Below the pieces are notes generated by a model that worked only from the letters and a program-made list of their open reading frames with translations, was not told the origin of the DNA and did no database searches. Source: Dehalogenimonas formicexedens (GTDB lineage: Bacteria; Chloroflexota; Dehalococcoidia; Dehalococcoidales; Dehalococcoidaceae). From it: a stretch of 64,000 nucleotides of DNA. The position numbers and the translations under genes are program-made. The stretch is from contig NZ_CP018258.1 in NCBI RefSeq assembly GCF_001953175.1, forward strand, positions 62,001 through 126,000, read 5' to 3'. Numbering within the stretch: the stretch's first letter is position 1; the number at the start of each line of letters is the position of its first letter. Of this stretch, positions 2,101 to 6,405 are shown one piece after another.

Positions 2101-4677
2101 TTATTTGATGAATTGGTTGACTGCGTCCAAGGCGGCCGGGAGCTTGGAAACGTCACGACCGCCGCCCTGGGCAAGATTCGGCCTGCCGCCGCCGCCGCCA
2201 CCGGCGATCTCGGACATCTTCTTGATGATATTTCCAGCGTGATAACCCATCGAAACCAGTTCGGGAGCCACCACGCAAAGAAAAACAGGCTTATCGGCGT
2301 GGCTCGAACCCAGTACAATCAAAGCAGGCGCCAGGCGGTCGCGAAGAATATCGGCCATATCGCGCAGGGTCTCCAGGCTGGCTTCACCGACTGAAGCGAT
2401 CAGGAGTTTGCCGCCGTTGATATCCCTGGCTGAGGAAAGCAGAGACAAGGCCTCTTTCCTGGAGATCTCTTTTTCGAAAGCGATCAACTGGTTTCGACCG
2501 TCTTCGATCTCGTTTTGAAGTTTTTGGATATTTTCATTCAGCAGTTTTATCTGGTGGCGCACGAAGGCTTCAGCGCCGCGGCCGGTGACGGCTTCAACGC
2601 GCCTGAGACCGGCGCCAACCGAAGATTCCGACGTCACTTTGAAGAAACCAATCTCGCCGGTAGATTTGATGTGGGTGCCGCCGCAGAGTTCGGCGGACAC
2701 CTGCTTGTCGGCGCCGATGGACAGGACCCTCACCGTGTCTCCGTATTTTTCACCGAAGAGAGCGGTGACGCCGGTTTTCAAGGCCTGCTGGTAGCCGGTC
2801 TCAACGGCGGCAACCGGATGATTTTCACGAATGTGGTCGTTGATGATGTCCTCGACGCGGGCTAGCTCCTCCGCGGAAACAGCCTTCAAGTGCGAGAAGT
2901 CGAAGCGCAGCCTGTCAGGGTCCACTACAGAGCCCCGCTGCTGAACGTGCTGACCCAAAACCTCCCGCAGGGCGGCCTGGAGGAGGTGGGTCGCCGTATG
3001 GTTGCGGGCGATATCGTAACGCCGCGCCACATCGACTTTGGCAAGCGCGTCGTCGCCGATCTCGATCTGTCCCCGGCTCAAATAACCCTGGTGCAATACC
3101 ACACCGGGTGAGAGAGCGACGGTATTGGTGACGATGAATGAACTTTCGCCCGAAGTGATCTCGCCGGTATCGCCGACCTGGCCGCCCATTTCCGCGTAAA
3201 AGGCGGTCTTATCCAGGATCAAACCGCCTTCCTCGCCTTCACGGATGACATCGGCGTTAGAATTGTTTATCAGTATCCCGTCGACGGTAGCGTACTGCGA
3301 CAGGGTATCGTAACCGGTAAAGCAGGTGGGGTTGAAGGTGTGACGGGCGTGGGCATCCTTATGCAGTTCGAACCTGTGAGAAGCGCGGGCTTTTTCCTTC
3401 TGCAGAGCCATTTCATGGTTGAAACCCTCGGTATCGACTTCGAAACCGGCGCCGGAGGCGATTTCGGAGGTCAGGTCGAGAGGGAAACCGTAGGTGTCGT
3501 ATAGCTTGAAAGCCTGTTCGCCGGTGATCTTGCGCCTGAGCTGAGCTTCTTCCGAAGCCATCATCTCTTCAAGAAGGCGCATGCCGGTAAACAGGGTCTC
3601 GGCGAAACGCGACTCTTCCCGGGCGACAAGCTCAGTGATAAAGTTGCGGCGGGCCGACAGCTCGGGGTAGACCGGGCTCATGCGCTCGATCACCGTTTCG
3701 ATCAACGGCACCATGAAAGGTTTATCCAAGCCCAAATTGCGACCGAACAAGGCCGTCCTCCGGAGTAATCGCCGCAGAACGTACCCACGGCCTTCATTGG
3801 ACGGGATGACGCCGTCGGCGATCAGGAAAGAGATGCTGCGGGAATGCTCCGCCACGATGCGCATGGCGCGGTCGATCTCCGGGCTGGAACCGTATTTCTT
3901 GCCCGAAACCATTGCCACTTTATCAAGGAGATAATCGAACCGGTCGGTCTGATAGACGCTGGATTTATTTTGCATAATTGTAGTCAGCCGTTCCAGCCCC
4001 ATCCCGGTGTCGATACTCGGATTCTTCAGGGGGATCCTGGCTCCAGCCTTGTCCTGGTCGAATTGGACGAATACCAGATTCCAGATCTCGCAGAACCGGC
4101 CGCATTTGCAGGCGGGACCGCAATCCGGCTGGCGGCAGCCGACGCTTTCGCCGAAGTCGTAGTGAATCTCGGAACAGGGGCCGCAAGGGCCGGAATCCCC
4201 GGCCGGACCCCAGAAATTGTCTTTCTCCCCGAGTCGAACGATCCTGTTGTCCGGGACGCCCTTGGCCTGCCAGAACCTGACCGCCTCATCGTCGTCGAGA
4301 TAAACGGTCGTCCACAGGCGGTCGGCGGGAATTTTCAGGCGTTGGGTCACGAACTCCCAGGCAAAGTCGATGGCTTCCTTTTTAAAGTAGTCTCCGATCG
4401 AGAAATTACCCAGCATCTCAAAAAAGGTCAGGTGGGACGCATCGCCGACGGAATCGATATCGGTGGTGCGGAAGCACTTCTGGCAGGTGGTCAGGCGGGG
4501 CGCCGGCGGCTTTTCCTTGCCCAAAAAGTAAGGTTTGAACTGGACCATGCCGGCCGTGGTCAGCAGCAATGTCGGGTCGCCGTGGGGAATGAGCGATGAA
4601 GACGGCAGTATCTTGTGGGTTTTTTCGGCGAAGTATTCGAGGAAAAGGGCGCGAAGCTGGTCACCGGTAAAAGGCAT
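2101..4677 (-). CDS. alaS: Alanyl-tRNA synthetase
   Basis: 858 residues, a full-length class II synthetase that charges tRNA-Ala in the cytoplasm. The N-terminal catalytic domain opens with the typical LRALFLEYF...HKILPSSSLIP class II block. The editing domain has the HTATH zinc/catalytic motif near residue 560 and the CGGTH motif near residue 664. A Gly-rich stretch (AGGGGGGRPNLAQGGG) closes the C-terminal DHHA1 domain, as in other bacterial AlaRS. A cysteine cluster near residues 180-195 (CRQPDCGPACKCGRFC) fits the extra zinc motif found in many AlaRS. The promoter at 4712-4740 drives it. It is divergent from the orphan rdhB and followed by ruvX. Confidence 0.98.
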   Translation of the reverse strand: MPFTGDQLRALFLEYFAEKTHKILPSSSLIPHGDPTLLLTTAGMVQFKPYFLGKEKPPAPRLTTCQKCFRTTDIDSVGDASHLTFFEMLGNFSIGDYFKKEAIDFAWEFVTQRLKIPADRLWTTVYLDDDEAVRFWQAKGVPDNRIVRLGEKDNFWGPAGDSGPCGPCSEIHYDFGESVGCRQPDCGPACKCGRFCEIWNLVFVQFDQDKAGARIPLKNPSIDTGMGLERLTTIMQNKSSVYQTDRFDYLLDKVAMVSGKKYGSSPEIDRAMRIVAEHSRSISFLIADGVIPSNEGRGYVLRRLLRRTALFGRNLGLDKPFMVPLIETVIERMSPVYPELSARRNFITELVAREESRFAETLFTGMRLLEEMMASEEAQLRRKITGEQAFKLYDTYGFPLDLTSEIASGAGFEVDTEGFNHEMALQKEKARASHRFELHKDAHARHTFNPTCFTGYDTLSQYATVDGILINNSNADVIREGEEGGLILDKTAFYAEMGGQVGDTGEITSGESSFIVTNTVALSPGVVLHQGYLSRGQIEIGDDALAKVDVARRYDIARNHTATHLLQAALREVLGQHVQQRGSVVDPDRLRFDFSHLKAVSAEELARVEDIINDHIRENHPVAAVETGYQQALKTGVTALFGEKYGDTVRVLSIGADKQVSAELCGGTHIKSTGEIGFFKVTSESSVGAGLRRVEAVTGRGAEAFVRHQIKLLNENIQKLQNEIEDGRNQLIAFEKEISRKEALSLLSSARDINGGKLLIASVGEASLETLRDMADILRDRLAPALIVLGSSHADKPVFLCVVAPELVSMGYHAGNIIKKMSEIAGGGGGGRPNLAQGGGRDVSKLPAALDAVNQFIK

Positions 4678-4942: not shown

Positions 4943-4971
4943 TTGACAAGGTACGGGAACGGGCTTATAAT
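4943..4971 (+). promoter_or_regulatory. Consensus sigma-70 promoter of orphan rdhB
   Basis: TTGACA (4943-4948), exactly 17 bases, TATAAT (4966-4971): a 12 of 12 match with ideal spacing. Transcription should start near 4978, leaving a leader of about 45 bases. AAGGGAGGT (5005-5013) gives a strong ribosome site before the ATG at 5023. The rest of the alaS-rdhB gap (4741-4942) holds nothing recognisable. Confidence 0.9.
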
Positions 4972-5022
4972 AAGCGAAAAGTTAGGGAATAATTAGGAAA
5001 TAATAAGGGAGGTACTCAGTCT

Positions 5023-5295
5023 ATGTGGTTGGTAATCGGTCTCGTCCTCGGCGCGCTCCTGATCTGGCTCGTCTCCTTCATGAAGAGCAAGGGCATGGCT
5101 TTCCGCTGGTATGAATGGATCATCGGCATCATCGGTCTGGGCCTGCTGCTCTTTACTATCCAAAACTACTTCGGTTCCCAGGCTGAACTCGAACCCAAGG
5201 CTGCCAACATGTTCCTGCTGGTAACCGGTCTGCCGGCCGTGATCTTCCTGGCCATCGCCTGGCAGTTGGTCATCCGCCACAAATCGACCACCTAA
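5023..5295 (+). CDS. rdhB: RdhB-type reductive dehalogenase membrane anchor, orphan
   Basis: 90 residues with three hydrophobic segments (about 2-20, 29-48 and 58-80). A WYEW motif precedes the second helix, a Glu-containing loop (AELEPKAA) follows it, and the third segment is GLPAVIFLAIAWQLV. Length, three-helix layout and the W-EW motif are those of RdhB proteins, which are thought to anchor the RdhA reductive dehalogenase on the outer face of the membrane. An rdhA gene is normally adjacent and upstream. Here the neighbours are alaS and holA and no rdhA occurs in the window. The gene has its own consensus promoter, strong ribosome site and intrinsic terminator, so it is built as an independent, probably well-expressed unit. 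An unrelated three-helix protein is the alternative. Confidence 0.75.
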   Translation: MWLVIGLVLGALLIWLVSFMKSKGMAFRWYEWIIGIIGLGLLLFTIQNYFGSQAELEPKAANMFLLVTGLPAVIFLAIAWQLVIRHKSTT

Positions 5296-5321
5296 TCTCA
5301 AACAACTTAATATCGCAATCA

Positions 5322-5353
5322 AGGGGGAGTCGCAAGACTCCCCCTCTTGTTTT
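5322..5353 (+). terminator. Intrinsic terminator of rdhB
   Basis: Ten-base-pair stem AGGGGGAGTC / GACTCCCCCT with a GCAA loop (5322-5345), followed by CTTGTTTTG. It lies 27 bases after the rdhB stop. Confidence 0.85.
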
Positions 5354-5400
5354 GTCGGATTCCGCAAATACCAAAACCTGGCGGATTCAGCCGCTCCTTA

Positions 5401-6405
5401 TTACGCGGACAAAGGCTCGAGCGGGGCGCCGCTGGCGAGTTCAGCAACCAACAGATCCAGGGCGAGGTCCTCATCCATCCGTCCGGTTTTGGCTGCCAGG
5501 TCGGTATCAAGCAAACGCCGATAGACATCCTTCAAACGGCCCAGGGAGAAACGCGCCGCCTGGTCCTGGGTTTTTTTCCACAGAAAATCAGCTATGAGTC
5601 CAAGCTTCCTTCGAATTTCGAGCTCCTTGCCGCCGCGACTCTTCAAATCCTTGTACTGGATGACCAGTCGCAATTGACGGGACAGCATTGCCAGGACGTA
5701 GCCAGCCGAAAGTCCATTGATCTTGAGATTTTCGAGGGTCTCCGTAGCGGTTTTCAACCGGGTTTCGAAAATAGCGTCCACCAGGCTGAAGATATTCGCT
5801 TCACCGGTGTAGCCGACCAGTGTTTTAACGTCATGGTCGGTAATCTGGCGGCCGGCGGCGAACAACACCAGCTTTTCGATCTCGCCGGCGACGGCCCATA
5901 AGTCGGCGCCGACGTATTGAACCAGGAGGTTTATCGCCATCGGGGTGATGGCACCCCCGGCGTTCATCACCCGGCGCCCGATCCATTCTTTAAGTTTTGG
6001 TTTGTCGAGCGTCGGGAATTCGTGAAGCTCGACTTTATCTACGAGATACTTGAACAGCGGGTTATTGCGCGAAAGCTCGGTTTCAATCAGGATGATGGCG
6101 GTGGACGGCGGCGAATTGGTTATGGCGCTGGCGAAAACTTCCGGATCGTCGATCTTCGAGGCTTTTTTCAGGGTCCCGTCGCCCGTGGAGAAACGGGCCA
6201 ACAAGCCGGTAACTATGACAAGCCGGCACGGGGTGAGGAAAGGCAGGGCATCGACGGTGAGCTTGAATTCTCCAGGTTTAAGCCTGGCCCCCTCGAAAAT
6301 ACTGGTGGCGGTAGCCAGGACGGACGCGTCGCCGAGCGACGCCTTGATCGAGGCGAGCTTGAGCTTTAGAGAAAAATCGTCTGGGCCGGCAAGGAGATAC
6401 CGCAA
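5401..6405 (-). CDS. holA: DNA polymerase III subunit delta
   Basis: 334 residues, the usual size of HolA, the clamp-loader subunit that opens the beta sliding clamp. The N-terminal AAA+-like fold opens with YLLAGPDDFSLKLKL and contains the CRLVIVTGL strand. The helical C-terminal part has the family's LSRQLRLVIQYKDL segment near residue 230 and a final KTGRMDEDLALDLLVAELA helix. It starts with TTG directly against an AT-rich repeat and has no Shine-Dalgarno. It lies downstream of the potassium genes on the same strand. Confidence 0.9.
   Translation of the reverse strand: MRYLLAGPDDFSLKLKLASIKASLGDASVLATATSIFEGARLKPGEFKLTVDALPFLTPCRLVIVTGLLARFSTGDGTLKKASKIDDPEVFASAITNSPPSTAIILIETELSRNNPLFKYLVDKVELHEFPTLDKPKLKEWIGRRVMNAGGAITPMAINLLVQYVGADLWAVAGEIEKLVLFAAGRQITDHDVKTLVGYTGEANIFSLVDAIFETRLKTATETLENLKINGLSAGYVLAMLSRQLRLVIQYKDLKSRGGKELEIRRKLGLIADFLWKKTQDQAARFSLGRLKDVYRRLLDTDLAAKTGRMDEDLALDLLVAELASGAPLEPLSA

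Follow-up and report, generated by a model that had tools for sequence, protein, structure and literature searches.

An orphan RdhB with its own consensus promoter is conserved across Dehalogenimonas genomes and is a candidate shared membrane anchor for RdhAs without an adjacent rdhB

The closest described relatives of the protein reported here are the PceB-type anchors, as found in the PceA2B2 complex (8q4h). In the available text of the PceAB structure paper (PMC10624902), the contact with RdhB lies in the C-terminal helices of the RdhA, a segment that is unstructured in PceA solved without PceB, and the conserved glutamates of PceB are placed in the helix 2-3 loop. As far as the accessible part of the D. 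mccartyi complexome study goes, one RdhA co-migrated with its own genomic RdhB and a specific interaction was inferred (PMC6005880), which speaks against a promiscuous anchor. The accessible portions of other papers give three to six rdhB per genome (PMC13390414, where the orphan rdhB is not discussed in the available text) and, for D. etheniformans GP, a downstream rdhB at four of fifty rdhA genes (PMC7729418). The 2016 genome paper on Dehalogenimonas alkenigignens IP3-3, in its available parts, describes most RdhAs as lacking an rdhB and DEALK_05730 as an orphan. It offers two options, complementation of the rdhB-less RdhAs by this gene or solubility of those enzymes, and poses their membrane route as a question still to be answered (PMC4918011). 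The hybrid RdhA with N-terminal transmembrane helices is a further solution for an enzyme without a separate rdhB; according to the text available, anchor and enzyme are fused in it (PMC6797604), whereas the orphan RdhB described below is separate and unlinked.

The window, i.e. the whole 64-kb stretch of DNA that was analysed (62,001-126,000 of the contig), contains at 5023-5295 on the plus strand an open reading frame of 90 aa with an ATG start, which the initial annotation had described as a three-helix protein with the W-EW motif of RdhB. This description was accurate, as helices are predicted at residues 2-22, 29-54 and 58-89 (AlphaFold model, pLDDT 88) and the motif is present as W29-Y30-E31-W32, between helices 1 and 2 as in the PceB-type anchors. 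The protein also has the size and topology of the RdhB family (~90 aa, hydrophobic, two to three helices). Among 31 aligned RdhB-like sequences no change is seen at W29 or Y30, and W32, G38, E55, G69, P71, L82 and R85 are nearly invariant, with W32 and E55 each at ≥90%. E55 belongs to an E-L-E motif (E55-L56-E57) at the junction of the predicted helices 29-54 and 58-89, which matches the E-x-E of the helix 2-3 loop in PceB. The best PDB fold match of the model was PceB itself (8q4h_C, TM 0.67, probability 1.00, 26% identity), with a Foldseek E-value of 0.11, and PceB was found by this fold comparison alone, being recovered neither by phmmer nor by profile searches of PDB sequences.

At the sequence level, an unbiased single-sequence search recovered rdhA-adjacent RdhBs: the own-genome paralogues share 34-55% identity with the orphan (E 3e-26 to 5e-9) and six of those matched adjoin an rdhA, while identity to an rdhA-paired gene of the Dehalococcoides-like genome G009 reaches up to 69%. 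A purpose-built RdhB profile, the type of check proposed in the initial annotation, also gave a strong match, the orphan RdhB being among the rows from which the profile was built. Pfam and NCBIfam scans returned no family above cut-off, which is uninformative because four rdhA-paired or RdhB-type control proteins are likewise without a match and the two libraries thus offer no RdhB model that works. By its sequence relation to rdhA-paired RdhBs and its predicted fold match to PceB, we identify the product of 5023-5295 as an RdhB, and it would be expected to bind an RdhA on the outward side of the membrane. We regard it as a variant, open to testing, of an established family and not as a new type of system. 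It differs from the PceB-type anchors in having no rdhA nearby, in having a promoter and terminator of its own, and in the unchanged state of that promoter in every genus genome.

The sigma-70 promoter (TTGACA-17-TATAAT, 12/12 consensus) lies at 4943-4971 (+). It is the sole perfect site in the window, where 0.01 is expected from shuffling, and 15 perfect sites were found in the 2,092,789-base genome as compared to 0 with a reversed-pattern control, so the match is not due to chance. The remaining 14 perfect promoters stand before dissimilar genes, with three of them being copies of a single repeated element, and tRNA genes were found at two of the 15 fetched loci. From the −10 box to the ATG runs a 51-nt leader (4972-5022, +), which is A-rich and contains AGG-containing near-repeats ending in AAGGGAGG, the ribosome site at ~5005-5012, 10 nt upstream of the ATG. 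Folding of the leader is weaker than that of any of 200 shuffled versions (z +2.27), and when a regulon sharing it was sought, the leader proved unique in the genome at ≤3 mismatches. Downstream of the gene lies an intrinsic terminator (5322-5355, +) with a stem at 5322-5345 (10 pairs, 7 G-C) followed by a T-rich tail, and by eye a GC-rich hairpin with T's is visible 3' of the orphan rdhB in 8/8 genus genomes. Both neighbours are on the opposite strand. The divergent one (2101-4677, −), with an 11/12 promoter at 4740-4712 (−), we take to be alaS (alanyl-tRNA synthetase), and the convergent one (5401-6405, −) is presumably a holA-like gene (DNA polymerase III delta). Because the orphan rdhB is flanked by these two genes, the simplest view is that it forms a single-gene unit transcribed from 4943-4971. 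The perfect promoter with 17-base spacing, the ribosome site and the terminator named in the initial annotation were thus all confirmed, and so was its proposal of an independent transcription unit, by virtue of the gene's own promoter, own terminator and opposite-strand neighbours.

Both hexamers and the 17-nt spacing are unchanged in 8/8 genus genomes, including the copy in G002 that is displaced by an insertion. Between genomes, with the two closest genome pairs omitted, identity was 33% in the promoter spacer, 48% in the 40 bases upstream, 82% in the coding sequence and 89% in the first 39 nt after TATAAT. By eye, the spacer of some genus genomes seems to contain short inverted repeats, which are absent in G000 and G004, and we propose no operator here. 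We conclude from these alignments that the promoter of the orphan rdhB is under selection; it appears to be held at full strength, with an open and probably well translated leader, and expression may well be constitutive. In G002 an insertion sequence (locus L056, 8553-10065) presumably of an IS256-like family, whose transposase is spread over two frames and whose flanking duplication, at 69 bases, is unusually long, separates the conserved promoter from an intact orphan rdhB. Strong expression from this promoter is therefore dispensable in G002, unless another promoter has replaced it.

The orphan status claimed for the gene also stood. A TIGR02486 search gave no rdhA in the 64-kb window, and among the 27 matches genome-wide the nearest starts at 285,928, ~218 kb from the orphan rdhB, and the nearest round the origin lies at ~1,894 kb; the gene is therefore not placed directly downstream of an rdhA as in an rdhAB operon. 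When 20-kb loci were searched by tblastn with RdhAs, no rdhA adjoined the orthologue in any of the 8/8 genus loci and none lay within ~10 kb in 6/8, the exceptions being G001, with an rdhA on the opposite strand at a distance of ~5 kb, and G002, with one at ~8 kb. A translocated cognate rdhA, which the initial annotation had named as a finding that would refute it, was found beside none of the orthologues, and its other refuting outcome, the lack of an RdhB profile match, did not arise either.

An orthologue of the orphan RdhB is present in 7/7 other genus genomes searched, at 73-97% identity. One of these is DEALK_05730, as the G007 copy (270 bp, 58.52% G+C, 89 aa; same values for the G003 copy) agrees with Table 6 in the available text of PMC4918011, which deals with one strain and, as far as that text extends, gives no orthology, promoter or docking analysis. 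The genomic surroundings are partly shared: both alaS and holA flank the gene in 3/8 loci, holA alone in 3/8 and alaS alone in 2/8, so that alaS is found near the orthologue in 5/8 genomes and holA adjoins it in 6/8. The dN/dS of the orphan rdhB was 0.14-0.34 in all genome pairs except the near-identical G003/G007, and purifying selection on the aligned codons is thereby shown. In three Dehalococcoides-like genomes holA is present without alaS or an RdhB within the fetched 4 kb, and the closest relatives of the orphan RdhB in these genomes adjoin an rdhA.

The RdhB profile gave 55 matches in the 8 genus genomes, comprising the 8 orphans, at least 35 beside an rdhA, and 12 others without a partner among the matches listed, two of which are 24-residue fragments; this tally is based on full RdhA sets for 3/8 genomes and, for the other five, on the matches listed and the fetched loci. 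In this search the orphan was the only RdhB found in 8/8 genomes, the dcpB-type and the distant 153625-type each being found in 5/8. In a first RdhB tree (59 rows, after removal of five duplicates) the orphans did not form one clade, since a long dcpB branch fell among them. In a second tree, which omits 7 rows that are divergent or on long branches (the 153625-type, one truncated, two zinc-ribbon and three dcpB-type), they formed one clade with a support of 98/79. Taken together, these comparisons place the orphan rdhB as a genus-core, conserved, stand-alone RdhB.

In three genus genomes we counted 76 RdhA frames (25 in G000, 28 in G001 and 23 in G002), defined as open frames of ≥250 aa with truncated genes included. 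An adjacent rdhB was found for 17/76 (6, 4 and 7, respectively; one G000 pair was reassigned by hand, since an upstream-extended frame overlapped) and none for 59/76 (19, 24 and 16). The initial annotation had pointed to an excess of rdhA over rdhB, and this is what the three genomes show. For comparison, 18/18 RdhAs read in the Dehalococcoides-like G009 have an adjacent rdhB, and in the genus genome G004 at least 5 RdhBs adjoin an rdhA, as judged from profile matches and loci. On the RdhA tree the pairing state changes at least 9-11 times, so the lack of an rdhB does not go back to one inherited event, although the trait remains markedly clustered (mean of shuffles 28). An example is the RdhA at G000:392261, which has no rdhB though a paired RdhA of G009 shares 74% identity with it.

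Most of these unpaired RdhAs retain the segment by which a paired RdhA contacts its anchor. A docking-tail profile was built from the C-terminal segments of 18 paired G009 RdhAs, and the counts given here are profile counts, as a docking-motif regular expression overlooked genuine cases. The profile matched 17/17 paired and 53/59 unpaired RdhAs of G000, G001 and G002. The six misses are four proteins without a Tat motif (G000:1890010 and three orthologous RdhAs encoded upstream of dcpA), one very divergent protein (G000:1393476) and one split gene (G002:447939), and the docking tail thus appears to be lost together with export and otherwise kept. In a comparison aimed at shared-partner uniformity, the docking segments of unpaired RdhAs were, at equal overall identity, slightly more alike than those of Dehalococcoides paired RdhAs (0.47 vs. 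0.44 and 0.52 vs. 0.47) and not clearly more alike than those of same-genus paired RdhAs. The retention in 53/59 is the strongest argument for unpaired RdhAs using an RdhB in trans, and the orphan would be the one anchor always available to them.

We consider it probable that the orphan RdhB is a constitutive three-helix anchor, driven by the strong promoter of its gene, which serves in trans many RdhAs that lack an rdhB of their own, and this is the best explanation of the data at hand. The protein would be made continuously, Tat-exported rdhB-less RdhAs would dock via their C-terminal helices on its outward-facing helix 2-3 loop (E-L-E), and this docking would link them both to the membrane and to the organohalide respiration complex. 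A shared constitutive anchor had been suggested in the initial annotation; the proposal has gained support from genus-wide conservation, a promoter footprint and the retained docking tail in RdhB-less RdhAs, while binding, use in trans by many RdhAs and constitutive expression are the parts that we infer. The core idea had already been voiced in 2016 for IP3-3 (PMC4918011), and a literature search, largely confined to papers readable without subscription and in part to portions of them, gave no account of conservation across the genus, of the promoter or of the docking tail.

The main rival is that the orphan RdhB belongs to a split one-to-one pair and serves one genus-core RdhA encoded elsewhere. 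Known RdhA-RdhB pairs can be specific, according to the accessible part of the complexome study (PMC6005880), and seven of the unpaired RdhAs find one another as reciprocal best hits across G000, G001 and G002. Six of the seven carry a Tat motif, and for most the identity is 68-74%, similar to that of the anchor. However, this leaves at least six equally good candidates instead of one, and most other unpaired RdhAs, which keep their docking tail, would then be anchorless; we therefore regard a split pair as unlikely, if a serious contender. Alternatively, the rdhB-less RdhAs may be soluble or loosely attached, as was offered for IP3-3 in the text seen of PMC4918011, or may rely on anchors encoded in other rdhAB operons, with another or a minor role left for the orphan, e.g. 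steadying OmeB in the respiration complex without RdhA. Other RdhBs exist in each genus genome, and an OmeB-RdhB contact is reported for D. mccartyi in the available text of PMC6005880. These readings fit poorly with 53/59 unpaired RdhAs keeping a segment known to serve contact with an RdhB, and with the finding that the profile search gave no other RdhB in 8/8 genomes. Moreover, functionally assigned operons adjoin two-component regulators in the accessible text of PMC13390414, and their anchors are thus probably not always on. We hold this group of explanations to be rather improbable. That the gene is an evolutionary relic or a chance small ORF, as the severed promoter in G002 might suggest, is refuted for the genus as a whole by its conservation in 8/8 genomes, the dN/dS of 0.14-0.34, the unchanged promoter and the highly conserved leader, and is highly improbable.

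If one anchor serves the rdhB-less RdhAs, most of the RdhA repertoire of the genus can be respiratory, a single gene becomes both a marker and a handle for this repertoire, and heterologous expression of these RdhAs should include the orphan RdhB. More tentatively, with somewhat less than even confidence, the orphan RdhB could be a standing "socket" subunit of the Dehalogenimonas organohalide respiration complex, into which dozens of interchangeable RdhAs plug to reach the same hydrogenase and molybdoenzyme core. Gain of an rdhA alone, without an rdhB, would then suffice to gain a respiratory enzyme, which would account for the abundance of rdhA genes without an rdhB in this genus.

Some other genes of this family were observed in the course of the analysis. 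At locus L071, G000:C1:1613124-1613663 (−) and 1614565-1614900 (−) encode unpaired RdhB-like membrane proteins with a C-terminal zinc-ribbon-like CxxC...CxxC pair, located among other zinc-ribbon-like proteins and with no rdhA within the fetched 9 kb. At locus L073, G000:C1:153625-153912 (−) encodes a distant RdhB-like three-helix protein with MYDR instead of WYEW; it lies beside ABC-transporter-like genes with no rdhA nearby, and this 153625-type is the one present in G000, G003, G004, G005 and G007. A second unpaired RdhB is common to two genomes (G000:C1:1887108-1887413, −, and G007:C1:19002-19241, −), with a non-adjacent rdhA ~2.6 kb off. An RdhB of IP3-3 is ascribed, in the available text of PMC4918011, to a transposon-truncated rdhA, and our guess is that the two are the same. 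Finally, an RdhA without Tat motif or docking tail is encoded directly upstream of a dcpA-like RdhA (G000:C1:1402030-1403415, +) and is kept at ~88% in two other genomes.
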